From assembly GCA_903907985.1 (NCBI GenBank), contig CAIVQG010000065.1:1-64000 (forward strand): a DNA stretch of 64,000 nt. Direction: 5' to 3'. This stretch comes from an uncultured delta proteobacterium (GTDB taxonomy: Bacteria > Desulfobacterota > Syntrophia > Syntrophales > Smithellaceae). The position numbers and the translations under genes are program-made. The notes beneath the pieces are model-generated. The model had not been told where the DNA came from. It ran no database searches and saw nothing but the letters and a program-made list of their open reading frames with translations. Below, one piece after another: positions 17,401 through 32,397 of this stretch. Every line of letters begins with the position of its first letter. The first letter of the stretch is position 1.

Positions 17401-17982
17401 ATGTTCTTTGAAATCAAGAAACAGTTGGCGTTTATGTTGATGAAAGGATGTCTTCATACCCACACGACATGTTCGGATGGGAAACTCACGCCGCAGGAAG
17501 TTGTTAATGCGTACGAGTCAAGAGGTTATGACTTCATAGCGTTTACCGATCATGACTACCTTTTAAAGCCGAACTACCGCGAAATTTACGGACAGGTAAA
17601 AACCGATATGATCATTTTCCACGGCATCGAACTTACGGTTTATATCCAGGGTTATGTTCATGTCGGGATGATTGAAGGAGTAAAGGAAACACTGCATATT
17701 TTTAACCATATCGGTGAATATGATCTCACTCCGGACCGAGTACTGGAGAGATTGGCGGATCTGGAGCAGATGTATCCTCTGGATGCAGTGGAAATAACGA
17801 CGAAGGGATTTCGCGACACCGTGTTGGAATCACTGAACATAAGGTATCCTAAAATCGCATCGGATGATGCGCACACGCTGCTAGGCGTTGGACGGGCATG
17901 GATAGAGCTGGATGCAAAACGCGAAAAAGATTCAATACTGATGGCGGTCAAACAAGGTGAGTTTTGGAACTGTTACGTGTAA
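17401..17982 (+). CDS. PHP-domain metal-dependent phosphoesterase-like protein
   Basis: 193 aa. PHP metal motifs: HTHTTCSDG near the N-terminus, AFTDHD, HGIELT and SDDAH late. These sites bind two or three metal ions; relatives hydrolyse phosphoesters such as histidinol phosphate or nucleotides. It is shorter than classic HisK proteins and lacks other domains. No convincing Shine-Dalgarno precedes the ATG at 17401; starts at 17434 or 17440 are possible and keep all motifs. First gene after the candidate TetR-type operator, 114 bp before the thiolase genes. Relation to the acyl-CoA genes unknown. Confidence 0.7.
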   Translation: MFFEIKKQLAFMLMKGCLHTHTTCSDGKLTPQEVVNAYESRGYDFIAFTDHDYLLKPNYREIYGQVKTDMIIFHGIELTVYIQGYVHVGMIEGVKETLHIFNHIGEYDLTPDRVLERLADLEQMYPLDAVEITTKGFRDTVLESLNIRYPKIASDDAHTLLGVGRAWIELDAKREKDSILMAVKQGEFWNCYV

Positions 17983-18096
17983 AAGGTCAAGACACATGGC
18001 AGATAGAATAAGGTACAAGCATTATTTAAATGAGAGAAAGGATTAGGGAAAAAAGGACACAGAAAGTCAATTTAGGAGGTTTAAGGAGGATTGGCA

Positions 18097-19242
18097 ATGG
18101 GTAAAAGAATAGCAATCTGCGCCGTGGCGCAGATTAAAAACGATGCGGAATACTGGCATCTTCGTTTTCAGAACATGTTGCTCGAATGCTTCGAGTCCAT
18201 CATGGATCAGACCAAGGTTACCTTCGATATGGAGAAGGGTATCCGGACGATCATCACTTGCTCGAATGACATGTTCGACGCGCGGACGATATCCAACAAC
18301 GGGGTAACGGATGTTGTGGGTGCTCAATTCCGCGGCGAAGAAAAAATGGATCAAGAAAGTATCAATGGACTCGGCTATGCGATGGCCAGCATTCTCAGTG
18401 GTCATGATGACGTGATACTGTTCATGGGCCACTGCAAGGAATCGCAGGGAGAAAGCCGGAGGATGATTTCCAACCTCTCCTTTGATCCCTTCTATACCAG
18501 ACCGCTCGGCATGGACTATCACAACGTAGATGCCATGCAGGCGCGGGCTTACATGGAAAAATCGAAAGTAACAGACGAGCACCTGGCAAAAATAGTAGTG
18601 CGCTCACGGCAGAACGCGCAGAAGAATCCATATGCGCGGGAGAATAAGCTCGTTTCCGAACAAGAAGTCTTGAATTCGCCGATGTATTCTGATCCGTTGC
18701 GAGAGCTCCATATGTATCCGATTACTGACTGGGCTTATGGGATGCTTCTCTGCTGTGAAGAGCGTGTGAAGGAGTTCACCAAAAAGCCAGTGTGGATTAC
18801 CGGATACGGTAGCTGCATGGACAGGTATTTCCTTGGTGACAAGGACCTTACCTCGAATTTCTCGCTGAAGAACGCCTCAAAAAGGGCTTACGAAAAAGCT
18901 GGAATTAAAGATCCCAAAAAAGACATCCAGGTGTTTGAATTATCCGACCACGCCGCGTACCAACTCCCCATGTGGGCCGAGGGCGTCGGTATCGCCGATG
19001 AAGGCCAGGGCGGGAAGTGGATAGACGATGGCGGGATGGACAAATTCAACGTGAATTTGTCAGGGGGACACCTCAATGGTAACCCGCTACTCCTCGGAGG
19101 TGCGGCTAGGGCGATGGAATGCTACTACCAGTTGAGCGGTCAAGCGGGCGATCGTCAGGTCAAGGGCGCCAAGCGGGCAGTAGCTCAGGCGGCAACCGGC
19201 GGAGCCGGTCAGCACCAGGCCGTAATAGTAATGGAAGCGTAG
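18097..19242 (+). CDS. Thiolase-superfamily protein, 'A-type' (SCP-x-like), catalytic residues lost
   Basis: 381 aa from ATG at 18097 (AGGAGG at 18084-18089; a TTG at 18091 is rejected). Thiolase fold seen by FDARTIS, FDPFYTRPLGMD, KAGIKDPKKDIQVFEL and the C-terminal NLSGGHLNGNP. The nucleophile region (INGLGYAMAS) has no Cys, and the histidine of the usual GHP is Asn (NGNP); the CxG motif is also absent. It is paralogous to the protein at 25625 (shared GIKDPKK, FLGDKDL versus FFGDRDL). First of an A+B pair with the gene 12 bp downstream. It may be a non-catalytic or retasked subunit, as in Ltp2-type aldolases; the true reaction is unknown. Confidence 0.8.
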   Translation: MGKRIAICAVAQIKNDAEYWHLRFQNMLLECFESIMDQTKVTFDMEKGIRTIITCSNDMFDARTISNNGVTDVVGAQFRGEEKMDQESINGLGYAMASILSGHDDVILFMGHCKESQGESRRMISNLSFDPFYTRPLGMDYHNVDAMQARAYMEKSKVTDEHLAKIVVRSRQNAQKNPYARENKLVSEQEVLNSPMYSDPLRELHMYPITDWAYGMLLCCEERVKEFTKKPVWITGYGSCMDRYFLGDKDLTSNFSLKNASKRAYEKAGIKDPKKDIQVFELSDHAAYQLPMWAEGVGIADEGQGGKWIDDGGMDKFNVNLSGGHLNGNPLLLGGAARAMECYYQLSGQAGDRQVKGAKRAVAQAATGGAGQHQAVIVMEA

Positions 19243-19254
19243 GGAGGTTGAACT

Positions 19255-20454
19255 ATGGCACATAGAAAGAAAAACAGAAACGTTGGAATAATAGGTATTG
19301 GACAGACGAAGCATTCCAGTCACCGTGAAGATGTTAACCAGCCGGAATTGATATATGAAGCTGTCAGTTTGGCCCTGAAAGACGCGAACCTGACCATGAA
19401 TGACATTGATTGCGTTGTTCACGGCAACATGGAGCTCTTTGAGATGGTGCACCAGCCGGATCTCTGGCAAGTACTGGGTACCGGCGCCTACGGGAAGGAC
19501 TGCATACGGATAACAACGGGCGGTACAGTCGGCGCCACCATCTCTTGCGCTTCGGACAATCTCGTGGCATCGGGGATGTATGATATCGTAATGGCTATCG
19601 GCTTTGAGAAGCTGCAGGAAGGACACACGACCGGTGGTATCACAAATATGGCTGATCCTCTCTGGTTCCGTAAGATTCAGTCGGGCGCACTGACCGGCTC
19701 TTCAGCATATGATGTCGAGCGGGAATTCGGTCTGGAGCGGGCCAACAGGGCATCGCTAACCTATCGCATCATCATGGACAAGCACGCGGGTTTGAATCCC
19801 AATGCGCACCGCTCCTTTGGTCTGGAGTTCAGCCAGATCGACGACCTGATCAGAACTTCGCCGAAGCTTGTCGGTGAACTCAAACTCATCGAAATGTGCT
19901 CCCAGTCTGACGGGGCATGCTGCGTCATCTATGCCTGCGAGAAAAAAGCTAAGGAGCTTACCAAAACCCCGGTCTGGATCCGCGACCATATCTCAGCCCA
20001 CAAGGAAGAATGCTTCCCTATCTTCGGATATGACAGGAAGTATCCCGTTTTGAAGACGCACAAATTTGCGGCGGAACAGCTCTTCAAACGGAATAATATC
20101 AAGAATCCCTTGGACTATTTCGACGTATTTGAAATGTACGATCCAGCCACATGGTGGGCAATTGACTGGCTCAGGGACTTCTTTGCCCTCAAAGGCGATG
20201 AACACCTGAAGCTCATCGAGGACAAGGAGATAATGATTGGCGGCAAGATGCCTATTAACCCGTCAGGCGGCGTAATCGGGTCGAACCCGATTGGCGCAAC
20301 CGCGCTGCTCAGGGTGGCCGAGGCGGCATTACAGGTGCGCGGCAATGCTGGTCCGCACCAGATTCCGACTCCGGTCAATCACGCTCTCGCTTCAGGGTTC
20401 GGTGGTACCATGTGGACCGTGATGACAATGCTCGAAAAGGAACTTAACTGGTAG
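19255..20454 (+). CDS. Thiolase-superfamily protein, 'B-type' (SCP-x-like), nucleophilic Cys replaced
   Basis: 399 aa. N-terminus VGIIGIGQTKHSSH, nucleophile region ITTGGTVGATIS where SCP-x thiolases read NNNCSTGS-like sequence, so the Cys position is Gly. NPSGGVIGSNPIGATAL carries Asn in place of the GHP histidine; the C-terminal motif is GFGGTMW. The loop VFEMYDPATWW is kept. Paralogue of 26782. It follows the A-type gene by 12 bp and is followed by the SCP2-DUF35 gene after 10 bp, suggesting a thiolase-fold heteromer with a DUF35 partner. The missing residues argue against ordinary thiolysis. Confidence 0.82.
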   Translation: MAHRKKNRNVGIIGIGQTKHSSHREDVNQPELIYEAVSLALKDANLTMNDIDCVVHGNMELFEMVHQPDLWQVLGTGAYGKDCIRITTGGTVGATISCASDNLVASGMYDIVMAIGFEKLQEGHTTGGITNMADPLWFRKIQSGALTGSSAYDVEREFGLERANRASLTYRIIMDKHAGLNPNAHRSFGLEFSQIDDLIRTSPKLVGELKLIEMCSQSDGACCVIYACEKKAKELTKTPVWIRDHISAHKEECFPIFGYDRKYPVLKTHKFAAEQLFKRNNIKNPLDYFDVFEMYDPATWWAIDWLRDFFALKGDEHLKLIEDKEIMIGGKMPINPSGGVIGSNPIGATALLRVAEAALQVRGNAGPHQIPTPVNHALASGFGGTMWTVMTMLEKELNW

Positions 20455-20464
20455 GAGGACAATT

Positions 20465-21658
20465 ATGGCAGAGTACTGGGGAGTAAAAGTAGAAGATATA
20501 TTCAACTCAATGCAGGAACGTTTCCGTCCCGAAGGGGCCAAGGATGTCGATAGTTTATTCGGATATGACATCAAAGACGAGGGCAAGTGGAAGCTCACTG
20601 TAAAAGACAATAAAATGACGATTGAGAAGACCGACGACCTGACAGGTTGTATTGCGACCATGAAGGCCGACGGAGAGACCTTTGTCGGGGTAAATACCGG
20701 CAATGTCGATGCGACGAATGCCTTCATGGGCGGCAGAGTCATTGTTGACGGCGACATGGGTGCCTTCGGAAAGACCGGAAAGCTGTTCCGTAAATTCGTC
20801 ATCGCCCAGAAGGAGATGACGACCAAGGACTATCTCGCCGACATGTTTGCAACGATTGTGCCGAGGTTCAAGGCCAATGAGGCCGAAGAAGGGCTGGATG
20901 TTTCCTTCGCGTACGATCTCGGTGGTCCGGACGGCGGCAAATGGACTGTGTTCATCAAGGATAAGAAATGCACGATCACGACGACCATCGAAGGGAAACC
21001 CACGGTGACCCTCGAGTTCAATGACGCCAGAGACTATGTTGACTTCATTCTGGGAAAAATTGACGCCCAGAGCCTGATGGCATCCGGTAAGGCGGGGGCC
21101 AAAGGCGACCTCAATATGATGGCAACGAAATGGCCGATACTTTTTGAGAAATATAAAGACCCAATGGCTGGCAATGTTCCACAGCAGGAACTCATAGTGC
21201 TAAAAAAGATTATATCGTTGAACGAAAAGTTTTCTACCGGTCCCGTCATGGGGAAATTCCTCAAAGGACTGAAGGAACAAAAGATATATGCTAATAAATG
21301 TCCCCAATGTGGCCGTATGCAACTGCCACCGCGGGAAGTGTGCGCCGATTGCCGGGTACGCGTCGATGAATTCTTAGAGGTCGGGCCCAAAGGTGAAGTC
21401 CGCTACATGGACATCATCTACTACGCCATGCCTGACCCGCTTACCGGTCAGGTCCGGGAGACACCGTACGGAGGAATCAACATCCTCTTCGACGGTTGCA
21501 AGGGCAATGAAACACTACCGCACTTTATACGAAAGGATCAGATCGAAAAGATCCAGATGGGTTGGAACGAGAAGAAAGGGACCCGCGTCCGCCCCGTCTG
21601 GGAGGAAAACCGGATTGGCGATATCTGGGACATAAAGTATTTCGAGATAGATGAGTGA
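20465..21658 (+). CDS. SCP2-SCP2-DUF35 fusion protein
   Basis: 397 aa. Residues about 1-125 and 126-235 are two SCP2 sterol-carrier-like domains (VNTGNVDATNAFMGGRVIVDGD in the first; GKIDAQSLMASGKAGAKGD in the second). Residues about 270-397 form a DUF35 unit: a rubredoxin-like zinc ribbon with Cys279, Cys282, Cys293 and Cys296 (CPQCG...PPREVCADC), then an OB fold. SCP2 domains bind acyl-CoA or lipids; DUF35 proteins hold thiolase-family enzymes together and shuttle CoA esters (BbsAB, Ltp2-ChsH2, archaeal thiolase/HMG-CoA synthase). The fusion could deliver substrate directly to the thiolase pair encoded just upstream. Confidence 0.88.
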   Translation: MAEYWGVKVEDIFNSMQERFRPEGAKDVDSLFGYDIKDEGKWKLTVKDNKMTIEKTDDLTGCIATMKADGETFVGVNTGNVDATNAFMGGRVIVDGDMGAFGKTGKLFRKFVIAQKEMTTKDYLADMFATIVPRFKANEAEEGLDVSFAYDLGGPDGGKWTVFIKDKKCTITTTIEGKPTVTLEFNDARDYVDFILGKIDAQSLMASGKAGAKGDLNMMATKWPILFEKYKDPMAGNVPQQELIVLKKIISLNEKFSTGPVMGKFLKGLKEQKIYANKCPQCGRMQLPPREVCADCRVRVDEFLEVGPKGEVRYMDIIYYAMPDPLTGQVRETPYGGINILFDGCKGNETLPHFIRKDQIEKIQMGWNEKKGTRVRPVWEENRIGDIWDIKYFEIDE

Positions 21659-21669
21659 GGAGGAGGTAT

Positions 21670-23097
21670 ATGACAACAAAGCAAAAGAAAGGTTTTGAAG
21701 ACAGCTATGTAGTTGAAGGTAAAATGGCGCTCCCTTATACTTACTTCGCCGGAAGTGTTGGCAGCAAGTTCATCACGACCGTCCGGGATGAGAAGAAAAT
21801 AATGGGAGTAAGATGCCCTACCTGCAACTTGGTATACCTACCGCCGCGGCAAGTGTGCGACAAGGACTTTACCGACATACGTGATAACTGGGTGGATGTA
21901 GGCAATTCCGGCACTGTTACCAACTTCACCGTGGTGCGGTACGACGACAAGCACATGCCTCGCAAGGCACCATTCGTGCTGGCGCTAATCAAGATGGAAG
22001 GCGCAGATACGCCTTTCATGCACATCCTCGAAGAATGCAAATTTGAGGATGTGAAGATAGGTATGAATGTTGAAGCTGTATTCGCCAAAGAGACGACGAA
22101 TACCATCCTTGATATCGATCATTTTAAACCCGTTGCCGAAAGAGCTTCTATCCAGGAACGTAATGCGGGCAGGAAAAAGTGGGTTGCTGATAATGAAAAC
22201 GCAGTTCATGGAAAACAAAAAGGGGGAAAACCAGATATGTCTAAACCAGTAATTATTGCCGCGGCGCTGACTGGGGCCGCGACAATGAGAAACCAGAACC
22301 CATCGGTTCCTTACACCCCGGCCGAATTTGCCACAGAGGCTTACAAGTGCTGGAAAGCAGGCGCGGCCATGGTGCATGTGCATGCCCGTGAGGACAACGG
22401 TATGCCAACTCATGATCATGAGCGGATCAGAGCGACATATAATGCGATCAAGGACAAATGTCCGGAGTTAATCGTGAATCTGAGCTCTGCAGTGGGAATG
22501 GGCAAGACGGCAGAGCAGCGCATATCGCAGATTATAGCTGTAAAGCCCGATATGGCATCTCTGAATACAAATACAATGAACTTCAGCATCGTCGACCGTA
22601 AAACCGGTAAGATATTCATTGAATACGTATTCGAAAACACCTTCACCATGCTACAGGAATTTGGCAAGGCTATGGAGGAGAATGGTGTGAAGCCCGAGAT
22701 CGAGTGCTATGATATGGGCGGACTCGACAACACTTTGCTGATAGCCAAGCAGGGTTTCTTCAGCGAACCGATGAATTTTAATTTTGTCTGGGGAGTTGCC
22801 GGCGGTCAGGCCTTCCGTTCAGATGCTTTTATTGCCATGATGAACGCCATTCCCGCGAACGCAAACTTCACCACATGCGGCGTCGGGACCGACCAATTCC
22901 CGTGCATTATGCAGTCGTGCATTCTCGGCGGACATATGAGGGTTGGCCTTGAGGACAACATCAAGATGCCAAATGGAGCGCTCGCCAAGGGAAGTTACGA
23001 GCAGGTGGAAGTGGCGGTGAACATAGCCGATTCTCTCGGCAGAGCGGTGGCGACCACAGACGAAGCAAGAGCGATAATGGGATTAAGGAAGAAGTAA
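21670..23097 (+). CDS. DUF35-BKACE fusion (beta-keto acid cleavage enzyme)
   Basis: 475 aa from ATG at 21670 with GAGGAGGAGG upstream; the frame opens earlier at 21655. Residues about 1-160 are a DUF35 unit (CPTC at 49-52, Cys63; the fourth ligand position is Asp, VCDKD). Residues 190-475 are a full BKACE (3-keto-5-aminohexanoate cleavage family) protein: metal site HVH at 236-238, NLSSAVG, MASLNTNTMNF, GGHMRVGLED. BKACEs exchange the acyl part of a beta-keto acid with acetyl-CoA, giving acetoacetate and a new acyl-CoA. An internal ATG at 22237 (residue 190), preceded by AGGGGGAAAA, could also start the BKACE half alone. Confidence 0.9.
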   Translation: MTTKQKKGFEDSYVVEGKMALPYTYFAGSVGSKFITTVRDEKKIMGVRCPTCNLVYLPPRQVCDKDFTDIRDNWVDVGNSGTVTNFTVVRYDDKHMPRKAPFVLALIKMEGADTPFMHILEECKFEDVKIGMNVEAVFAKETTNTILDIDHFKPVAERASIQERNAGRKKWVADNENAVHGKQKGGKPDMSKPVIIAAALTGAATMRNQNPSVPYTPAEFATEAYKCWKAGAAMVHVHAREDNGMPTHDHERIRATYNAIKDKCPELIVNLSSAVGMGKTAEQRISQIIAVKPDMASLNTNTMNFSIVDRKTGKIFIEYVFENTFTMLQEFGKAMEENGVKPEIECYDMGGLDNTLLIAKQGFFSEPMNFNFVWGVAGGQAFRSDAFIAMMNAIPANANFTTCGVGTDQFPCIMQSCILGGHMRVGLEDNIKMPNGALAKGSYEQVEVAVNIADSLGRAVATTDEARAIMGLRKK

Positions 23098-23147: not shown

Positions 23148-23197
23148 AAAATAATTAACATGGCCACTTGTCAATCAACATAAACGGGGAAACTCGA

Positions 23198-25036
23198 ATG
23201 GATGTAAATGAACAAACCATAAATGATGTTTTTCGCAACCGTGTAAAAAAATACTCAGACCGGCTGGCAATCGAGAAAAAGATTGGCGGCGTATGGATAA
23301 GCGCGACATGGAACGAATATTATGAGCGGGCGTGCGCGGCAGGGCTGGGATTATATTCTCTGGGCCTGAGAAAAGGGCAGATGGTTTCAATCTTGTCTGA
23401 TAACAGGCTGGAATGGCTCTATACGGATATGGGCACTCTGGGTATCGGTGCTGTAGTGATCCCGGTGTACCCGACCCTCGTTTCTGAGGAAATAGAGTAT
23501 ATCCTCAACAACTCGGGATCAAAGGTTATTGTTGTAGAAAACAAGAAACAGCTTGAAAAGGTGCTGGATGTAGTTAACAACTGCCCAGCACTCGAAAAAA
23601 TAGTAGTTATGGAAGCAAATGATGCGCAAGGCCACGAGAAGGTAATGAGCTTCAATACCCTCATGGAACTGGGACGCAAAAAGAATAAAGAAGACCAGGC
23701 GCTTTTTGAAAAAATGGCGAAAGAAGTGAATGGCGATGACCTTGCTACTATTGTTTACACATCAGGAACAACCGGCCTTCCCAAGGGTGCCATGATATCG
23801 CACGGCAATGTGTTCTGGGTTGTGCAGTCCCTCGACGCGATCAGGCCGCACTTTGCCTCCGATAAGGATTGCACTGTGCCGTTCCTTCCCCTTTCCCACG
23901 TGTTCGAACGCATCGCGGGACACTTCTATGGAATGTACTGCGGCATAACCGCTTCCTATGCGGAGAGTATAGATACGCTGCTGGCGGATTTTGAAGAAAA
24001 GCGGCCCACGATGATACTGGCCGTACCACGGGTGTGCGAAAAAGTGTACCAGAAGATCATTGCCCAGGTCAAGGAACAGTCCCCATTTAAACAGAAGGTA
24101 TTTTATTGGGGCCAGGAAGTCGGAAAGAGCATCAGCGAGTTGCGCGAGAAGCATATAACAATACCCTTCTGGTTGCAGCTGAAATACAAGATTGCGTATA
24201 CCTTGATTTTCAAGAAGCTCCAGGACAAGCTTGGTGGACGCGTTACCTGGATGACCGCTTCCGGTGCTCCCACGGCAGAGGAGATCATACGGTTCTTCAA
24301 CGCGGCCGGCATCACTGTCATACAGGGATACGGAATGACGGAAACCACGGCACCAGCCACCATGCAGTCAATGGTTGATTACCGCATCGGGACGACCGGT
24401 AAGCCGATACCAGGTGAGGACATCAAGATAGCCGACGACGGAGAGATTTTAATAAAGGGTGGCAATGTCATCAAAGGATACTGGAAGCTGCCGCAAGAGA
24501 CCGCAGATGCTTTTACGCCCGACGGGTATTTAATGTCCGGCGACATTGGCATGTTCGATAAAGATGGTAACCTGCTTATCACGGACAGGAAGAAAGATCT
24601 CATTATAACCTCTGGTGGCAAAAACGTTGCTCCGCAGAAGATTGAGAACATGTTCAAGTCTGATCCTCTGTTCACCCAGTTTATAGTAATCGGTGAAAGG
24701 AAAAAGTATCTCACCGGCTTATGCAACATCAATCCTGATGAGGCCGCGTTGCTGGCGAATGAGGCAGGTATAACGTTTAATAATTCGGCAGAGCTGCTGG
24801 AATCGCCGAAATTTCTCGATATTGTGCAGAAGCACGTAGACAAGAGCAACGCGCATCTCGCGAAGTATGAATCAATAAAGAACATCAGGATTGTCAAGAG
24901 CGATTTTTCCCAGGAAGGCGGCGAACTCACGCCTTCCCTAAAGCTCAAGCGCAAGGTGGTGCTCCAGAAATACAAGGACCTTATTGACGATATGTATGGA
25001 AAAGAGGCAGTTGACGAGCTGTATGCAAAAAAATAA
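23198..25036 (+). CDS. Long-chain acyl-CoA synthetase (AMP-forming, FAA1 type)
   Basis: 612 aa from ATG at 23198 (ACGGGGA upstream); a TTG at 23168 is less likely. Activates a carboxylic acid to its CoA ester via an acyl-AMP. Motifs: YTSGTTGLPKGAM (about 196-208), YGMTETTAP, then SGDIGMFDKDG, TDRKKDLIITSGGKNVAP. It resembles the long-chain FAA1/FadD15 group rather than short-chain acetyl-CoA synthetases. It lies in the centre of the island, so it probably primes the substrate of the pathway. Confidence 0.93.
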   Translation: MDVNEQTINDVFRNRVKKYSDRLAIEKKIGGVWISATWNEYYERACAAGLGLYSLGLRKGQMVSILSDNRLEWLYTDMGTLGIGAVVIPVYPTLVSEEIEYILNNSGSKVIVVENKKQLEKVLDVVNNCPALEKIVVMEANDAQGHEKVMSFNTLMELGRKKNKEDQALFEKMAKEVNGDDLATIVYTSGTTGLPKGAMISHGNVFWVVQSLDAIRPHFASDKDCTVPFLPLSHVFERIAGHFYGMYCGITASYAESIDTLLADFEEKRPTMILAVPRVCEKVYQKIIAQVKEQSPFKQKVFYWGQEVGKSISELREKHITIPFWLQLKYKIAYTLIFKKLQDKLGGRVTWMTASGAPTAEEIIRFFNAAGITVIQGYGMTETTAPATMQSMVDYRIGTTGKPIPGEDIKIADDGEILIKGGNVIKGYWKLPQETADAFTPDGYLMSGDIGMFDKDGNLLITDRKKDLIITSGGKNVAPQKIENMFKSDPLFTQFIVIGERKKYLTGLCNINPDEAALLANEAGITFNNSAELLESPKFLDIVQKHVDKSNAHLAKYESIKNIRIVKSDFSQEGGELTPSLKLKRKVVLQKYKDLIDDMYGKEAVDELYAKK

Positions 25037-25140
25037 TCAAGGAAGAAAAGTAGCAATTTTATCAGCATAACAGGAAGATAACGCTAGGATGGTCTTCCCT
25101 TCACCGCAGGGCGAGGGGGAGGCAGAAAAGGAGAGGAATT

Positions 25141-25608
25141 ATGGCCGATCAATTTCAAGGCATAGAGCCGATGGTTTACCAGAGCAAGATCAATGTTCCT
25201 TATTCCTGGTGGGCCGGCGACACGGCTACCAGGTTTTTTGTGGCGCTGCGGGACGAAAAGAAAATAATTGCTACGAAATGCGGCGCGTGCGGGAAGGTAT
25301 TTATGCCGCCCAGGAAAACATGTCCCTTATGCTTCACCGCGAACACGGAGTGGGTCGATGTCTCAGACGAAGGGACGGTGCTGACCTTTTCGGTGGCGCG
25401 GCGTCAGTTAGCTGCTATTCCTCAAGACCGGAAGGTGCCGGTCATATGGGGCCTGATAAAGCTCGATGGCGCTGATACCGCCATATTGCATTATCTAGAC
25501 GAAGTAAAGCCAGAAGACGTAATCATCGGCATGCGTGTGAAAGCGGTATTCTCGGAGACGCGGAAGGGTACCATCCGCGACATTTCGCATTTCAAACCGG
25601 TAAAATAA
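25141..25608 (+). CDS. DUF35 zinc-ribbon/OB-fold protein (first stand-alone copy)
   Basis: 155 aa. Four-Cys zinc ribbon CGACGKVFMPPRKTCPLC at about 54-71, then an OB fold (GTVLTFSVARR, IWGLIKLDGADTAILHY, GMRVKAVF). It acts as a partner subunit of thiolase-superfamily enzymes, placing or shuttling CoA thioesters. Start fixed by AAGGAGAGG upstream of ATG. 16 bp before the A-type thiolase at 25625, so this is probably its dedicated partner. Sequence style matches the copy at 27951 and the DUF35 part of the BKACE fusion. Confidence 0.9.
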   Translation: MADQFQGIEPMVYQSKINVPYSWWAGDTATRFFVALRDEKKIIATKCGACGKVFMPPRKTCPLCFTANTEWVDVSDEGTVLTFSVARRQLAAIPQDRKVPVIWGLIKLDGADTAILHYLDEVKPEDVIIGMRVKAVFSETRKGTIRDISHFKPVK

Positions 25609-25624
25609 GTAAGGAGCACGAGAT

Positions 25625-26770
25625 ATGGATAGAGCAGCAATAATCGGTGTCGGAATGACAAAGATTGAAAAGAGTAAAGTCAGGGAGACTTTTGCCGACA
25701 TGGCCTGGGAGGCTGTGAACAAGGCTCTGGCGGATGCCGGCATGAGCATTGACGATATAGACAACGTGGTGACCACCTCCAGCGATTTCTGGGATGGCAG
25801 GACTATTTCCTGCATGGCCGTCGGAGACGCCAGCGGCGCTGCGGACAAGAATACTTCCTGTGTAGAAGGCGATGGGACATATGGTGCCTTCTATGGCTAT
25901 ACGCGAGCGCTGTCAGGCTCATACAAAACGACCCTGGTGACGGGCCATTCCAAGGGTTCGCAGTGCATCTCCAGCCTGATTACGAATGCGTCGTTCGACC
26001 CCATTTGCGAACGGGGACTTGGTATGGACATGATCACAGCTTGTGCGATGCAGGCCAATGCCTATATGAACCGGACCGGGTTGAGGCCGGAAGATATGGC
26101 CATGGTCTCGGTGAAAAACCATGGAAACGCCCTCAAAAATCCGATGGCGCAGTTACCGATGAACATCACCGTCTCTGATGTCATAAAGTCCGAAATGATC
26201 GCAGACCCTCTCCACAAACTCGATTGTTCGCCTGTGTCGGATGGGTGTTGTGCCGTGATCATCGCTCACGAATCAGTGGCAACGAAGTTCAAACAGAAAC
26301 CGGTGTGGATCAGAGGGTTGTCTCTTTGTACGGACAGTTTTTTCTTTGGAGATCGTGATTTAGCCCGAAGCAATGCATTGGTCGAGGCCGCGAAAAACGC
26401 ATACAAAATGGCCGGAATCAAGGACCCGAAGAAGGAAATAGATATCGTTGAGCTCTATGACGCTTTTACCTACCAGGAACTGCTCTGGCTTGAAGAGATG
26501 GGACTGGCGGACTATGGAAAGGCGGCCAAGCTCCTTGAAGCGGGTGAATTCAACATAAATGGCCCGTTGCCTGTGAATCCGTCGGGAGGGCTTTTGTCTG
26601 GTCACCCCGTGATTGCGGCCGGCCTTTACCGAATAGCCGAAGTTGTTATGCAGTTGCGCGGCGATGCCGGGGAGCATCAGGTCAAGAAAGCCAAGACCGG
26701 CATTGCCCACGGCGTCAATGGCCTCTGCGGTCAGTCGCACTGTGTCTGGATTTTGGACAAGGAAAGATAG
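25625..26770 (+). CDS. Thiolase-superfamily protein, 'A-type' (second pair)
   Basis: 381 aa. Paralogue of 18097 (WDGRTIS, FDPICERGLGMD, FFGDRDL, AGIKDPKKEIDIVELYDAFTYQELLWLEEMG). Of the four copies it is the best preserved: NPSGGLLSGHP retains the catalytic histidine, and the C-terminus has GLCGQ with Cys. In the nucleophile region (CVEGDGTYGAFYG) the usual Cys position reads Gly, though a Cys lies several residues upstream. So it is the most likely catalytic member, perhaps a thiolase or aldolase half-site. It is 11 bp before the B-type partner. Confidence 0.83.
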   Translation: MDRAAIIGVGMTKIEKSKVRETFADMAWEAVNKALADAGMSIDDIDNVVTTSSDFWDGRTISCMAVGDASGAADKNTSCVEGDGTYGAFYGYTRALSGSYKTTLVTGHSKGSQCISSLITNASFDPICERGLGMDMITACAMQANAYMNRTGLRPEDMAMVSVKNHGNALKNPMAQLPMNITVSDVIKSEMIADPLHKLDCSPVSDGCCAVIIAHESVATKFKQKPVWIRGLSLCTDSFFFGDRDLARSNALVEAAKNAYKMAGIKDPKKEIDIVELYDAFTYQELLWLEEMGLADYGKAAKLLEAGEFNINGPLPVNPSGGLLSGHPVIAAGLYRIAEVVMQLRGDAGEHQVKKAKTGIAHGVNGLCGQSHCVWILDKER

Positions 26771-26781
26771 GAGGAATAACT

Positions 26782-27939
26782 ATGGCGAAAAGAGTAGCAA
26801 TCGTAGGGACGGGGCAGACGTTCCACAAGAGCCATCGCCCGGATGTTAATGGTCAGGAACTCATCAACGAAGCGGTTCAGCGAGCCTTGGCGGATGCCAA
26901 CCTGACGATGAAGGATATTAACGCTATTCTCATCGGGAATATGGATCATTTTGAGGGGATAAACTATGTTGACTGTTGGAGCGTTGATGGTTCCGGTGGT
27001 GTGATGAAACCGGTCATCAAAATAACAACCGGCGGTACGACGGGCGCTTCGTTGGCCGTTGGGGGCTATCACATGGTTGGTTCCGGCATGTTCGAAAAAG
27101 TTCTGATAATCGGGTGGGAGAAAAACTCCGAGTCCGATACAACTGGCGCCATTACGACGGCTTTCGATCCCATCTGGGACCGTCAGGTATTTGCCGGCGC
27201 CATATCCGGACTGGCTGCTGAGGCGCAAGCTTACATGGCGCGCTATGGAGCCTCCGACAGAGATGCTGCCCGTGTTTCTGTTCGTGATCGGAAGCACGCA
27301 ATGAACAATCCACATGCACAGCTCAGGAAAGAAATATCGCTGGAAGACGTACTGGCTTCTCCGATGCTGGCGGATCCCATCCACCTCCTCGATGTCTGTC
27401 CCCGAACGGATGGCGCCTGTGCAGTCATTATGGCGAGCGAGGATACTGCTGAGAAAATCTGTCCGAACCCAGACTGGATCTGGGGAACCGGTGCGCGTCA
27501 CTCCTATGCCTATCTCGGTGATTGCGACTGGGGTCGGCTGACGAGTATGGAGAGAGTTGCAAAGGAGATCTTTAAGAAAGCGGGGATCAAAGAGCCGCGG
27601 AAAGAACTTGACGTCATCGAAATGTATCAGCCTTATTCCTTTGCCGGCCTGATCTGGATCGAGGATATGGGCATCGTCGGCCATGGCGAAGGGCCGCAGT
27701 ATGTGGCAGATGGCAACACCGATATGGGCGGGGAACTTCCGATCAATCCCTCTGGGGGTGTGATCGCCTGCAACCCCATTGGTGCGACGGGGCTAATTCG
27801 CTGTGCAGAGGCCGCGATGCAGGTGATGGGCAAGGCGGACGCACGTCAGGTGCCGGATGTCAATTATGCCGTCAGCACCGGTTTTGGGGGCTGCATGTGG
27901 ACTGATATGCTCCTGCACGGGAAGAAAAAACCTAATTGA
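26782..27939 (+). CDS. Thiolase-superfamily protein, 'B-type' (second pair)
   Basis: 385 aa. Paralogue of 19255: VAIVGTGQTFHKSHRPDVNGQELI, ITTGGTTGASLA (Gly at the Cys position), NPSGGVIACNPIGATG (Asn for His), GFGGCMW at the end, VIEMYQPYSFAGLIW loop. Preceded by AGGAGG. With 25625 it repeats the A+B arrangement of the first module, and a DUF35 gene follows 11 bp later. It is expected to form a heteromer with the A-type chain. Confidence 0.83.
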   Translation: MAKRVAIVGTGQTFHKSHRPDVNGQELINEAVQRALADANLTMKDINAILIGNMDHFEGINYVDCWSVDGSGGVMKPVIKITTGGTTGASLAVGGYHMVGSGMFEKVLIIGWEKNSESDTTGAITTAFDPIWDRQVFAGAISGLAAEAQAYMARYGASDRDAARVSVRDRKHAMNNPHAQLRKEISLEDVLASPMLADPIHLLDVCPRTDGACAVIMASEDTAEKICPNPDWIWGTGARHSYAYLGDCDWGRLTSMERVAKEIFKKAGIKEPRKELDVIEMYQPYSFAGLIWIEDMGIVGHGEGPQYVADGNTDMGGELPINPSGGVIACNPIGATGLIRCAEAAMQVMGKADARQVPDVNYAVSTGFGGCMWTDMLLHGKKKPN

Positions 27940-27950
27940 GAGGTGAGATC

Positions 27951-28415
27951 ATGGCTGAAAAGGAACAATTGATTATCGAATCTGGTGAAGCGTCGCAACC
28001 CTTTAAATATGCGGTGGGGATGTACGGCAGTAAGTATTTTACAGAAGTCCGTGACAATAAGCGCATTATGGGTGTGAAGTGCCCCAAATGCGGTAAAGTT
28101 TATATCCCGCCTCGAGGGGTGTGTGGAAGTTGTTTTGTCGAGATGAAAGAATGGGTTGAAGTCGGTCCCAAGGGCGTGATTGGCACGTTTACCATTCTGC
28201 GCTTCGCCTTCATTGATCCGGAAACCGGACATCAGAAACCCGTTCCCTATGGGTATGGGTTCATTAAGCTCGACGGTGCCGACACCTTGATGCAACACTA
28301 TATCAATCTTGACGATGAGAGCAAGGTCAAGATCGGCGCTCGCGTGGAAGCTGTGTTTGCACAGGAGCGTAAGGGAAGCACCAGGGACATCGAGTACTTT
28401 AAAGTAATAGAGTGA
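27951..28415 (+). CDS. DUF35 zinc-ribbon/OB-fold protein (second stand-alone copy)
   Basis: 154 aa from ATG at 27951 (GAGAGGTGAGATC upstream; the frame opens at 27936). Zinc ribbon CPKCGKVYIPPRGVCGSC, then the OB fold (GFIKLDGADTLMQHY, GARVEAVFAQERKG). Likely partner of the B-type thiolase chain just upstream. Its stop overlaps the PP2C start by 4 bp, so phosphatase and DUF35 are translationally coupled. Confidence 0.9.
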   Translation: MAEKEQLIIESGEASQPFKYAVGMYGSKYFTEVRDNKRIMGVKCPKCGKVYIPPRGVCGSCFVEMKEWVEVGPKGVIGTFTILRFAFIDPETGHQKPVPYGYGFIKLDGADTLMQHYINLDDESKVKIGARVEAVFAQERKGSTRDIEYFKVIE

Positions 28416-29314
28416 TTGCGATTAAGGAGTCTCTGACGGTCGAAATAAATCCGGCGAAGAGGATATTGAAAATACCAGGGGTGGTGTGCGGCGGAATCAC
28501 TACCGGCACCGATAAAATTCGCAATGGTTACGGCAACGGCGACTGCCTTTACTTTGATTTTGAATACCGGGTGTTTGCCGTGGCGGACGGTTCGGAACGT
28601 TTTCCCTGGGCGTCACGTGATCTTTTAAATCGATTATCGGAATCTCTGGCACGGTCCGGCGTGCCGGATACGGTGGGAGGCTGGAAAGATCTGCTCAATA
28701 AGGAGATTTACTCCGTTCAGAAATACCAACACAAAACGACTTTCAGCTGCGTTGCCATCAGTTCGCAAAACGAAGGAGTCTCCCTGATAATTTCTCATGG
28801 TGGTGACAGTGTGGTGGCAGTAATGAACAGTGTCACCGGTTTAATCTGCCACCAAACCGGGCGCGATATGAATTTCGCGGGCAGGAGCAAAGATATTGCG
28901 GATGTAACAGAATATTTGCTCACAGACCGCGACTGCCGGGTGCTGATTGCCACAGACGGGTTTAACGATTTTTGGCAGTTCTGTCTGCGTCATTCTCTTC
29001 TTGGTGGCAAGCGTGATGTGTTCGCCCGGTACCCGATGGACGGCATCTGTGAAATGATTTCGGTCATACTGGAAGCAAACAAGGGCAGGTTTGAATACGA
29101 CGATATCGGTTTTATAATTATTGATCCGTTCCAGGTGCAGAATATCGGGGCAAATGCGGTACTCATGGGTGGAACCAAGCCTTATGAGGAAAAACAATTC
29201 CTTTTGGAATACGCGTCGGAATCACATGATCTTTGGGTATCTGACGAGAAGTGGATCGATTACGTCGACGAGTTCTCCGGGGCGGGGATTAGGATAATTG
29301 TTCAGGAGCGGTGA
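28412..29314 (+). CDS. PP2C-type protein phosphatase-like protein
   Basis: 300 aa, GTG start within the DUF35 stop. PP2C/SpoIIE-style metal-site pattern: FAVADG (Asp58-Gly60), SHGGDS (129-133), ATDGFNDF (180-187) and DDIGFIIID near the end. These enzymes remove phosphate from Ser/Thr with Mn or Mg. No kinase gene is near. Its place inside a CoA-ester catabolic operon is unusual; it may control one of the enzymes or a signal for the TetR-regulated island. The C-terminal 60 residues are unrecognised. Confidence 0.75.
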   Translation: MIAIKESLTVEINPAKRILKIPGVVCGGITTGTDKIRNGYGNGDCLYFDFEYRVFAVADGSERFPWASRDLLNRLSESLARSGVPDTVGGWKDLLNKEIYSVQKYQHKTTFSCVAISSQNEGVSLIISHGGDSVVAVMNSVTGLICHQTGRDMNFAGRSKDIADVTEYLLTDRDCRVLIATDGFNDFWQFCLRHSLLGGKRDVFARYPMDGICEMISVILEANKGRFEYDDIGFIIIDPFQVQNIGANAVLMGGTKPYEEKQFLLEYASESHDLWVSDEKWIDYVDEFSGAGIRIIVQER

Positions 29315-30022: not shown

Positions 30023-31174
30023 ATGGAATTCGGTTTAACTGAAGAACAAATAATGTTTAAAGACACGGTGTATCGCTTTGCCAAAAGTCAGATTGTTCCG
30101 CTTGTGGAGGAGGCAGACCTCAATTCAGAATTCTCGCCGGAAGTCTGGAAGAAGATGGGCGAGATGGGCCTTCTGGGCTTACCATTTCCTGTAGAGTTGG
30201 GGGGTTCCGGTGCTGATGTGGTTACGTGTTGCCTTTCCGCCGAAGCGATGGGTCACGCCGGTGTTGATCAGGGGCACCTGCTTGCTCTGGGCGCTCACAC
30301 CTATCTGTGCGGAGATACCATTTACAAGCATGGTTCGGACGCGCAATTAAAGAAGTATATACCAAAACTCGCGAGCGGCGAATGGATCGGCTGCATGGGG
30401 CTCACGGAGCCGGGAGCAGGTTCGGACGCAGCTTCGATATCAACCACGGCGGAAAAAAAAGGTAATAAGTGGATTCTTAACGGAACCAAGACCTTCATTA
30501 CCAATGCGCCGGTATGCAATGTGTGCGTCGTGTATGCCACCGTGGACAAAAAGCTGAAGCATAACGGCATAACTGCTTTTATCATCGATAGAGATGCTCC
30601 GGGCTTTTCCACGAGCAAGCCTTTCCATAAGATGGGTGTGCGCGCTTCTACGACTTCGGAAGTCATCATGGACAACTGTGAAGTAACGGAAGAGAACCTC
30701 CTGGGTGAAGTGGGAAAAGGATTTGCGTATACGCACGAGACACTTTCCTGGGACCGCAGTGCGCTTTTGGCTCCTTTTGTAGGCTGCATGCAATTTGCCA
30801 TTGAGGAATGCACAAAATATTCTCAGGAACGCGTACAGTTCGATAAGCCGATTAACCAGTTTCAGGCTATCCAGCAGAAGCTGGCTGATATGAAAATAAT
30901 AAAGGAAGCAGGCAAGATGGCAGTTTACCGCGTTGCCCACGACAAGGACTCGGGCAAACCACTGAATCACATGCATACCTCCATTGCGAAGGCGCTGGTC
31001 GGTGACTGGGGCATGAAGGCGGCAAGCGAAGCAGTCCAGATATTCGGCGGGTACGGCTTCATCCATGAATATCCGATCGAGCGGTTCCTTCGTGACGCGA
31101 AACTCGCGCAAATAGGCGGTGGTACCTCCGAGGTGCAGAGACTTATCATTTCCCGGATATTGAGCTATTTCTAG
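30023..31174 (+). CDS. Acyl-CoA dehydrogenase (first of a pair)
   Basis: 383 aa. GLTEPGAGSDAASI FAD/substrate motif, GTKTFITNAP, FGGYGFIHEYPIERFLRDAK with the Glu of HEYP at the catalytic-base position, and GGGTSEVQR. Good SD (AAAGGAGG). Two ACADs of different sequence next to each other recall heteromeric ACADs such as ChsE1-ChsE2; here both keep the Glu. Forms the enoyl-CoA for the hydratase pair downstream. Confidence 0.94.
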   Translation: MEFGLTEEQIMFKDTVYRFAKSQIVPLVEEADLNSEFSPEVWKKMGEMGLLGLPFPVELGGSGADVVTCCLSAEAMGHAGVDQGHLLALGAHTYLCGDTIYKHGSDAQLKKYIPKLASGEWIGCMGLTEPGAGSDAASISTTAEKKGNKWILNGTKTFITNAPVCNVCVVYATVDKKLKHNGITAFIIDRDAPGFSTSKPFHKMGVRASTTSEVIMDNCEVTEENLLGEVGKGFAYTHETLSWDRSALLAPFVGCMQFAIEECTKYSQERVQFDKPINQFQAIQQKLADMKIIKEAGKMAVYRVAHDKDSGKPLNHMHTSIAKALVGDWGMKAASEAVQIFGGYGFIHEYPIERFLRDAKLAQIGGGTSEVQRLIISRILSYF

Positions 31175-31224: not shown

Positions 31225-32397
31225 ATGAATTACGATTTGACGGCGGAACAACTATCAATAAAAGACAATTTTGAAAAATTTTGCAGGAAGGAAATCGAAC
31301 CTCGTGCACACATGCTGGACACGGCTTCTCATGAAGAAGTTGATAAACAGATCAAGGTTAACATAAAGATGCTTGCCGATCTGGGTTATCTCGGCATGGG
31401 ACATGATGAGAAGTACGGCGGCAGCAACAGTGACCTGTTTAGTCAGGCTATTGCCGGAGAGGAAGTTGCTAAAGCATGCGCTTCCACATTTTTGTCCTGC
31501 GGTGCCTCCTGCGGACTATTCGGCGTGCCGTTAAAGCTTTTCGGCACCGATGCGCAGAAGGAGAAATATCTTCCGGGCATCATCAAGGGCGAAATCATAG
31601 GCTGCTTTGGCCTCACCGAGCCGGAAGCAGGTAGTGATGCGGCCTCCATCAAGACCACGGCGGTCAAGAATGGCGACAAGTGGATTATCAACGGGACCAA
31701 GACCTTCATTACCAACGCGACTATAGCCGACGTTGCCCTGGTCTTTGCCTATACCGATCGTGAGAAAGGCCCCGGCGCCGGGGTAACCTGCTTCCTTATC
31801 GACCGCGGAACGAAGGGATTTTCCGTGAGCAAGCCCTTTGACAAAATGGGTTTTCGCGGATCACCCACGGCGGAATTGATACTGGAAGACTGTCAAGTAC
31901 CCCAAAGCGCAGTTATGGGCGAGGTCGGCGCGGGATTTATCCAGGCGATGCAGACACTGGAATATGGACGAATTGGGATGGCCACGGTCTGTCTGGGAAT
32001 TGCGGCAAAATGTCTGGAGCATGCGAATAAATATTCCAAGGAGAGAAAAACATTTGGCAAGCCCATTAACCGCTATCAAATGATATCCTTTAAACTTGCG
32101 GATATGATGATTATGTCCGACATAGCCCGTCTGCTCATTTACCAGGCCTGCTGGGCGAAGGAAACGAAAAATCCTGAATCGGCAATACTGGCATCAGTGG
32201 CCAAAGTGTGGGCATCCGAGGCGGCGACGCAGATATCCAGTATGGCGGTGCAAGTGCACGGGGGCTATGGCTATATCAAGGAGTTTGCTGTTGAGCGCTT
32301 ATACCGCGATGCCAAACTGGGCGAGATCGGTGAGGGTGCATCGGAAATTCAACGGGTGCTGATTGCCAAAGACCTGATACATAAGCACGCATCGTAG
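31225..32397 (+). CDS. Acyl-CoA dehydrogenase (second of a pair)
   Basis: 390 aa. GLTEPEAGSDAASI, GTKTFITNAT, then HGGYGYIKEFAVERLYRDAK: the catalytic Glu aligns with KEF. GEGASEIQR close to the C-terminus. Starts 50 bp after the first ACAD. About as long as the first but distinct in its N-terminal half, so it is not a recent duplicate. It could work alone or as a heterotetramer with the first. Confidence 0.94.
   Translation: MNYDLTAEQLSIKDNFEKFCRKEIEPRAHMLDTASHEEVDKQIKVNIKMLADLGYLGMGHDEKYGGSNSDLFSQAIAGEEVAKACASTFLSCGASCGLFGVPLKLFGTDAQKEKYLPGIIKGEIIGCFGLTEPEAGSDAASIKTTAVKNGDKWIINGTKTFITNATIADVALVFAYTDREKGPGAGVTCFLIDRGTKGFSVSKPFDKMGFRGSPTAELILEDCQVPQSAVMGEVGAGFIQAMQTLEYGRIGMATVCLGIAAKCLEHANKYSKERKTFGKPINRYQMISFKLADMMIMSDIARLLIYQACWAKETKNPESAILASVAKVWASEAATQISSMAVQVHGGYGYIKEFAVERLYRDAKLGEIGEGASEIQRVLIAKDLIHKHAS

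Follow-up and report, generated by a model that had tools for sequence, protein, structure and literature searches.

Background

The described systems closest to the locus analyzed here are the steroid hydratase-aldolases ChsH2/Ltp2 and Shy/Sal, in which a DUF35 domain ties the hydratase to the aldolase (PMC12502768, PMC12329534). Our locus shares with these systems a thiolase-fold subunit that lacks the nucleophilic cysteine, a DUF35 partner of this subunit, the fusion of DUF35 to a further pathway enzyme and a pair of acyl-CoA dehydrogenases encoded in the cluster (PMC12502768, PMC12329534). It differs from them in that the passenger of DUF35 is not a MaoC hydratase but a beta-keto acid cleavage enzyme (BKACE), in that there is no steroid context, and in that each set includes two different thiolase-fold subunits and the second DUF35 protein bears SCP2 domains. 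In the archaeal thiolase/HMG-CoA synthase complex (PDB 6esq), DUF35, which matches ours in sequence, also connects a thiolase-fold enzyme with another enzyme; there, however, a free DUF35 protein links to HMG-CoA synthase, whereas here DUF35 is covalently joined to a TIM-barrel zinc enzyme. Benzoylsuccinyl-CoA thiolase BbsAB (7PXP) likewise combines DUF35 with a thiolase-fold subunit in anaerobic degradation and gives weak NCBIfam hits, but the window proteins score far below the family cut-offs and BbsAB has no BKACE. Thus, DUF35 as an adaptor between enzymes is a known design, and BKACE is a new passenger.

BKACEs convert a beta-keto acid and acetyl-CoA to acetoacetate and a shortened acyl-CoA. 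One of them, BKACE15, is a zinc-dependent homotetramer that is inhibited by acetoacetate and accepts beta-ketohexanoate (PMC11961710). An additional domain located N-terminally of BKACE is present also in the bifunctional 3-aminobutyryl-CoA ammonia lyase/Kce (NCBIfam NF052389), where it is a lyase rather than DUF35.

Domain architecture of the fusion protein

The window, a 64,000-nucleotide stretch of a contig from an uncultured member of the Smithellaceae, contains a gene (21670-23097, plus strand) with a single open frame that extends from the ATG at 21670, preceded by GAGGAGGAGG, to the stop codon at 23095-23097 and encodes a protein of 475 amino acids. An initial annotation made from the sequence alone had interpreted this gene as DUF35 fused to BKACE. 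This interpretation is borne out by the continuous frame, by Pfam, by AlphaFold and Foldseek, and by the recurrence of the fusion in at least 26 loci; the fusion is real and conserved.

DUF35 accounts for the N-terminal third of the protein (21781-22131, plus strand) and consists of a zinc ribbon, C-x2-C...C-x2-D, and an OB fold. The Pfam profile zf-ChsH2 matches residues 40-65 with 20.1 bits, slightly below the cut-off of 23.2, and OB_ChsH2_C matches residues 74-138 with an E-value of 2.8e-12 (score 46.8, cut-off 27.1). By sequence, the domain is similar to PDB entries 3irb and 6esq_E; by fold, Foldseek matches it to 6ok1_D, the ChsH2 DUF35 domain of the Ltp2-ChsH2 aldolase (E-value 6e-8), and to the archaeal thiolase/HMG-CoA synthase complex (6esq) and BbsAB (7pxp). 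The C-terminal 280 residues form a complete BKACE TIM barrel that begins with an ATG of its own (22237-23097, plus strand). Residues 193-472 cover the entire PF05853 profile (positions 1-274 of 274; E-value 3.8e-93; 312 bits, cut-off 24.8), and the Foldseek match is Kce (2y7f; E-value 8.8e-27). The linker between the domains (22132-22236, plus strand) is 34-37 amino acids long in all fused copies but variable in sequence. The AlphaFold model, built on 42 relatives, includes two confident domains, with pLDDT of 82-96 in most blocks; in the second half of the linker, the pLDDT drops to 55-58 (approximately residues 171-190).

In the alignment with Kce, the motifs HVH and HMRVGLEDN of the window BKACE correspond to HLH and HIRCGFEDN. 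The zinc ligands His236, His238 and Glu428 and the Arg424-Asp429 pair are conserved and match the zinc ligands His46, His48 and Glu230 of Kce and its catalytic residues Arg226 and Asp231. In contrast, Glu14 of Kce, which recognizes the amino group of the substrate (PMC10470551), is replaced by Ala204, so that an amino substrate like that of Kce is excluded. Given this alanine and the score of 274 bits against a cut-off of 382, a Kce function in lysine fermentation is ruled out; for all other named BKACE functions in NCBIfam, too, the window protein falls below the cut-off.

Distribution and origin of the fusion

The scan of GTDB genomes yielded 65 loci. Of these, 22 encode both domains in a single ORF of equal length, and about 20 have DUF35 and BKACE as separate adjacent genes within the same operon; in the remainder, BKACE either has no adjacent DUF35 or lies next to a different one. 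Whole-genome searches added three fused loci (L075, L084 and L091), which, together with the window and the 22 GTDB contigs, brings the total to at least 26. A domain-fusion search had been proposed in the initial annotation with the caveat that the fusion could prove to be already described in many database entries. Many entries indeed exist, but a search of open-access papers found no description of a DUF35-BKACE fusion, which is thus undescribed as far as the searched literature shows.

A sequencing or assembly error that joins two genes, for which one could invoke the adjacent unfused genes of the relatives, is ruled out because at least 26 loci, drawn from many independent assemblies, share the identical joint and linker length while about 20 relatives possess separate adjacent genes.

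The fused gene is rare and patchy: whole-genome searches detected it in 14 of the 155 genomes of the order and in 4 of 297 drawn from the phylum. The hosts are Syntrophales/Smithellaceae and Spirochaetota MAGs, several of them Smithella, and some of the fused loci reside on contigs of 150-300 kb (L013, L018, L030). In the BKACE tree, which was rooted with the genome's own paralogue so that the position of the root is unreliable (branch of 3.75), the fused state requires one or two changes and 18 fused rows form a single clade (100/99). Adjacent genes gave rise to the fusion, with one or at most two origins on this tree. The operon copies of Spirochaetota (L013, L018, L020, L030) and Syntrophales (L008-L019) are intermixed in this tree, and the presence of intermingled fused copies in both groups suggests that the operon moved by horizontal transfer.

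Genomic context

The first gene of the operon, conserved in this position, encodes a PHP-domain protein (17401-17982; this and the following genes are on the plus strand). It is followed by two thiolase-fold proteins, T1 (18091-19242, start codon uncertain; Pfam Thiolase_C_1), whose motifs show a degenerate active site, and T2 (19255-20454), a putative retro-aldolase subunit. The next gene (20465-21658), identified by Pfam and synteny, encodes an SCP2-SCP2-DUF35 protein, so that the operon has two fusions of DUF35 to a passenger; the stop codon of this gene overlaps a GTG that is in frame with the DUF35-BKACE gene. Downstream of the DUF35-BKACE gene are an AMP-forming acyl-CoA ligase (23168-25036), a free DUF35 protein that is a paralogue of the fused DUF35 (DUFc, 25141-25608; 45%), the thiolase-fold proteins T3 (25625-26770) and T4 (26782-27939), paralogues of T1 and T2, respectively, a free DUF35 protein that is a paralogue of the SCP2-fused DUF35 (DUFd, 27936-28415; 35%), and two acyl-CoA dehydrogenases (30023-31174 and 31225-32397). 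An ORF of 300 amino acids (28412-29314) has no Pfam match but occupies the same place in the operon of several relatives, and a TetR-like ORF was recognized by eye.

In the relatives, the order is PHP, T1, T2, SCP2-SCP2-DUF35, DUF35-BKACE, (enoyl-CoA hydratase), acyl-CoA ligase, (CoA-transferase alpha/beta), then DUF35, T3, T4, DUF35, the ORF, a TetR-like regulator and two acyl-CoA dehydrogenases. In the window, the hydratase and the CoA transferase are missing from these places (for the latter, 25036-25141, where many relatives have the alpha/beta pair; compare L010:8176-9968), and a CoA-transferase pair with 60% and 72% identity is encoded on another contig of the same genome (L089). The operon includes two paralogous quartets (18091-21658 and 25141-28415), each with two thiolase-fold and two DUF35 proteins; passenger domains are attached to both DUF35s in the first quartet only.

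Genomic context also bears on which partner the fused DUF35 serves. Two loci (L085 and L086) contain PHP-T1-T2-SCP2DUF35-DUF35 without an adjacent BKACE, and their DUF35 is 66-68% identical to that of the window; hence, DUF35 of the fused type appears to belong primarily with T1/T2. Alternatively, DUF35 might act on BKACE itself, for instance by handling CoA or lending stability, and not dock to T1/T2. This reading agrees with the position of DUF35 beside the bound CoA in characterized complexes, but is improbable in the face of these two loci and of the many BKACEs of about 70% identity that occur without any DUF35. Such solo relatives have no informative neighbors, the genes beside them being unrelated (flagellar, DUF4015, ABC-transport). 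Among the solo BKACEs with approximately 70-75% identity (L037, L039, L044, L066, L071), flagellin/FliD genes and a LysM-DUF4015 gene are neighbors in several genomes. BKACE adjoins thiolase-fold/DUF35 genes also in Chloroflexota (L054, L063, L065) and in two more distant genomes (L087, L088), so that the association is wider than the fusion; the functional link to the thiolase-like genes proposed in the initial annotation is thereby supported.

The thiolase-fold proteins

A thiolase is recognized by the nucleophilic cysteine, the histidines of the HDxF and GHP motifs and a second cysteine. In T2 and T4, the nucleophile position is in the sequence TTGG, tyrosine (MYDP/MYQP) replaces the HDxF histidine and asparagine replaces the GHP histidine, all invariant or nearly so (in T2 of the window, Cys to Gly, HDxF to YDP and GHP to SNP). 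T1 has no nucleophilic cysteine and is variable at the HDxF position; T3 has a cysteine in 13 of 16 cases, albeit in a shifted context, mostly a tyrosine, and the conserved GHP histidine. Given that none of the four retains the canonical catalytic set, T1-T4 are probably not thiolases, which changes the picture of a thiolase-like enzyme given in the initial annotation.

The combination of glycine at the nucleophile position and tyrosine in a YDxx motif in T2/T4 is that of Sal and Ltp2. These steroid retro-aldolases use the tyrosine as the base, and CtSal, with glycine at the nucleophile position, is incapable of thiolysis (PMC12329534). By these residues, T2 and T4 look like enzymes that work in the manner of Sal/Ltp2-type retro-aldolases, although no counterpart of the second catalytic acid (Tyr344 or Cys304) was identified in them. 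Membership in the Sal/Ltp2 family is not claimed because, by overall sequence, T1-T4 are closer to SCP2-thiolase and archaeal thiolase, with 6ok1 and 9myr ranking lower among PDB matches. The initial annotation had further treated DUF35 as a CoA-shuttling unit, a view that has to be changed given that in known complexes it is a docking subunit (PMC12329534).

A probable internal translation start

The ATG at 22237, with which the BKACE domain begins, is located 10 nt downstream of a Shine-Dalgarno (SD) sequence (AAGGGGG, 22220-22226, plus strand; AAGGAGG in most fused relatives). The suggestion that this start could yield free BKACE in addition to the fused protein finds strong comparative support, and the site is unusually well conserved: an ATG at the BKACE start behind an SD is present in 26 of the 26 fused copies, including the three loci added later. 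In clade A, GGAGG stands 10 nt ahead of the ATG and the segment is translated as (K/R)GG-KPD-M, the SD itself coding for (K/R)GG; in clade B (L023-L026, L084), AAGGAGG precedes the ATG by about 6 nt in a segment translated as ERRKA-M, where the SD codes for ERR. The SD is therefore kept at the DNA level in two reading phases, in two unlike linkers and over different amino acids. Among the 30 invariant glycine columns of clade A, that of the SD is the only one limited to GGA/GGG. The variable part of the linker differs at 46% of amino acid pairs, whereas the GGKPDM block differs at 11.5%, comparable to the folded domains (14-15%).

Among fused genes of common ancestry, to which these statistics refer, all 23 copies analyzed have an anti-SD pairing energy between -8.7 and -13.3 kcal/mol, against 4.7% of 448 control ATGs, located in frame elsewhere in these genes, that reach -8.7 or below, and local RNA structure is weaker at the internal start than in the controls (mean of -7.2 vs -14.1 kcal/mol). 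In the window, the SD has drifted to AAGGGGG, still with a pairing energy of -10.7 that includes one G-U pair, but the spacing is long. When the genes are tested one by one by synonymous recoding, most are not individually significant. Ribosomes likely initiate also at the internal ATG, giving free BKACE beside the fused protein; this is considered only likely because the fused genes share ancestry and the per-gene recoding tests are weak. The fused protein itself is very probably made because the frame would be free to drift if BKACE came solely from the internal ATG; in clade A, all linker indels are multiples of three, without stops, and the length stays at 34-37 codons.

AAGGAGG-like SD sites also precede the unfused BKACE genes that were inspected, so that the internal SD was inherited from the free gene, and it could be an ancestral relic. 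Extending this view to the entire fusion, the stop codon between two co-expressed genes would have been lost with nearly neutral effect, the linker and internal start would be relics, and DUF35 and BKACE would act independently. Such a scenario is in keeping with the common occurrence of unfused operons with the same genes, with the fast divergence of the middle of the linker and with the same SD on free BKACE genes. However, although the linker has diverged, its length, the frame, the SD and the ATG are maintained in about 25 genomes of two phyla, and BKACE is a neighbor of thiolase-fold/DUF35 genes in other lineages as well; accordingly, we regard a nearly neutral fusion as rather unlikely.

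Proposed function

The reading that we favor, with a probability of roughly 0.55, is that DUF35 docks BKACE onto the retro-aldolase-like T1/T2 complex and that the internal start provides free BKACE subunits, which enter mixed tetramers. The DUF35 half would bind T1/T2 in the same way as other DUF35s bind Ltp2, Sal, BbsB and the archaeal thiolase, and the flexible linker of about 35 residues would hold BKACE next to this complex. As its residues suggest, T1/T2 might cleave a beta-hydroxyacyl-CoA to yield a carbonyl product together with an acyl-CoA, which is probably acetyl-CoA. The hand-over of a keto acid to BKACE that was suggested in the initial annotation is possible. Should the carbonyl product be a beta-keto acid, both substrates of BKACE would arise beside it, to be converted to acetoacetate and a shortened acyl-CoA, as expected from the family, and acetoacetate could be recycled by the CoA transferase, which is encoded in the operon in the relatives and elsewhere in the genome of the window. 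Retro-aldol cleavage by Sal/Ltp2 releases aldehydes or ketones rather than beta-keto acids. For a keto acid to result, the substrate would have to resemble HMG-CoA, and an intermediate of this type, cut to acetyl-CoA and a beta-keto acid, would feed BKACE. For Shy-Sal, flexible linkers were judged to be inconsistent with direct channelling (PMC12329534). If every subunit of a BKACE tetramer bore a DUF35 arm, the tetramer might cross-link dimeric T1/T2 complexes; use of the ATG at 22237, for which the comparative evidence argues, would yield tetramers with fewer than four arms, and free subunits could limit such cross-linking.

It is a more tentative and rather doubtful proposition that mixed tetramers of DUF35-BKACE and free BKACE at a heteromeric thiolase-fold retro-aldolase are central to a so far undescribed pathway of anaerobic degradation, with retro-aldol cleavage as the source of both the acetyl-CoA and the beta-keto acid used by BKACE. 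The identification of the operon with the missing propionate-dismutation pathway of Smithella, where BKACE would split 3-oxohexanoate into the butyryl-CoA branch, might seem attractive given that several fused loci come from Smithella MAGs, that the enzymes of this pathway are unknown (PMC13248872) and that BKACE15 accepts beta-ketohexanoate (PMC11961710). The patchy distribution renders this identification very unlikely: within the family to which the window belongs, the majority of genomes lack the operon, including many nearly complete ones, but Spirochaetota have it, and the scanned operon genes include no coenzyme B12 mutase.

Under the docking model, BKACE would be the third kind of enzyme tethered by DUF35 to a thiolase-fold partner, after HMG-CoA synthase and MaoC hydratases, and the operon of about 15 genes points to a concrete multienzyme assembly in syntrophic anaerobes. 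If correct, two steps of a degradation pathway would here be connected in an unrecorded manner, and the conserved internal ribosome site would represent a gene fusion that may retain both the joined and the free product.

The zinc ribbon of DUF35

The initial annotation correctly noted that the ribbon lacks its fourth cysteine: in the window (CPTCNLVYLPPRQVCDKD), aspartate stands in this position, so that the four-cysteine zinc ligand set of the DUF35/ChsH2 C-terminal domain is incomplete. Aspartate is found throughout clade A and in L030, whereas the fused L023-L026 and L084 have cysteine; among the unfused relatives, only L033 and L034 have aspartate. A connection between the loss of this cysteine and the fusion is thus ruled out. 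Four cysteines are not strictly defining for DUF35, given that the DUF35 domain of CtShy has a zinc site of three cysteines and one histidine (C3H1; PMC12329534).
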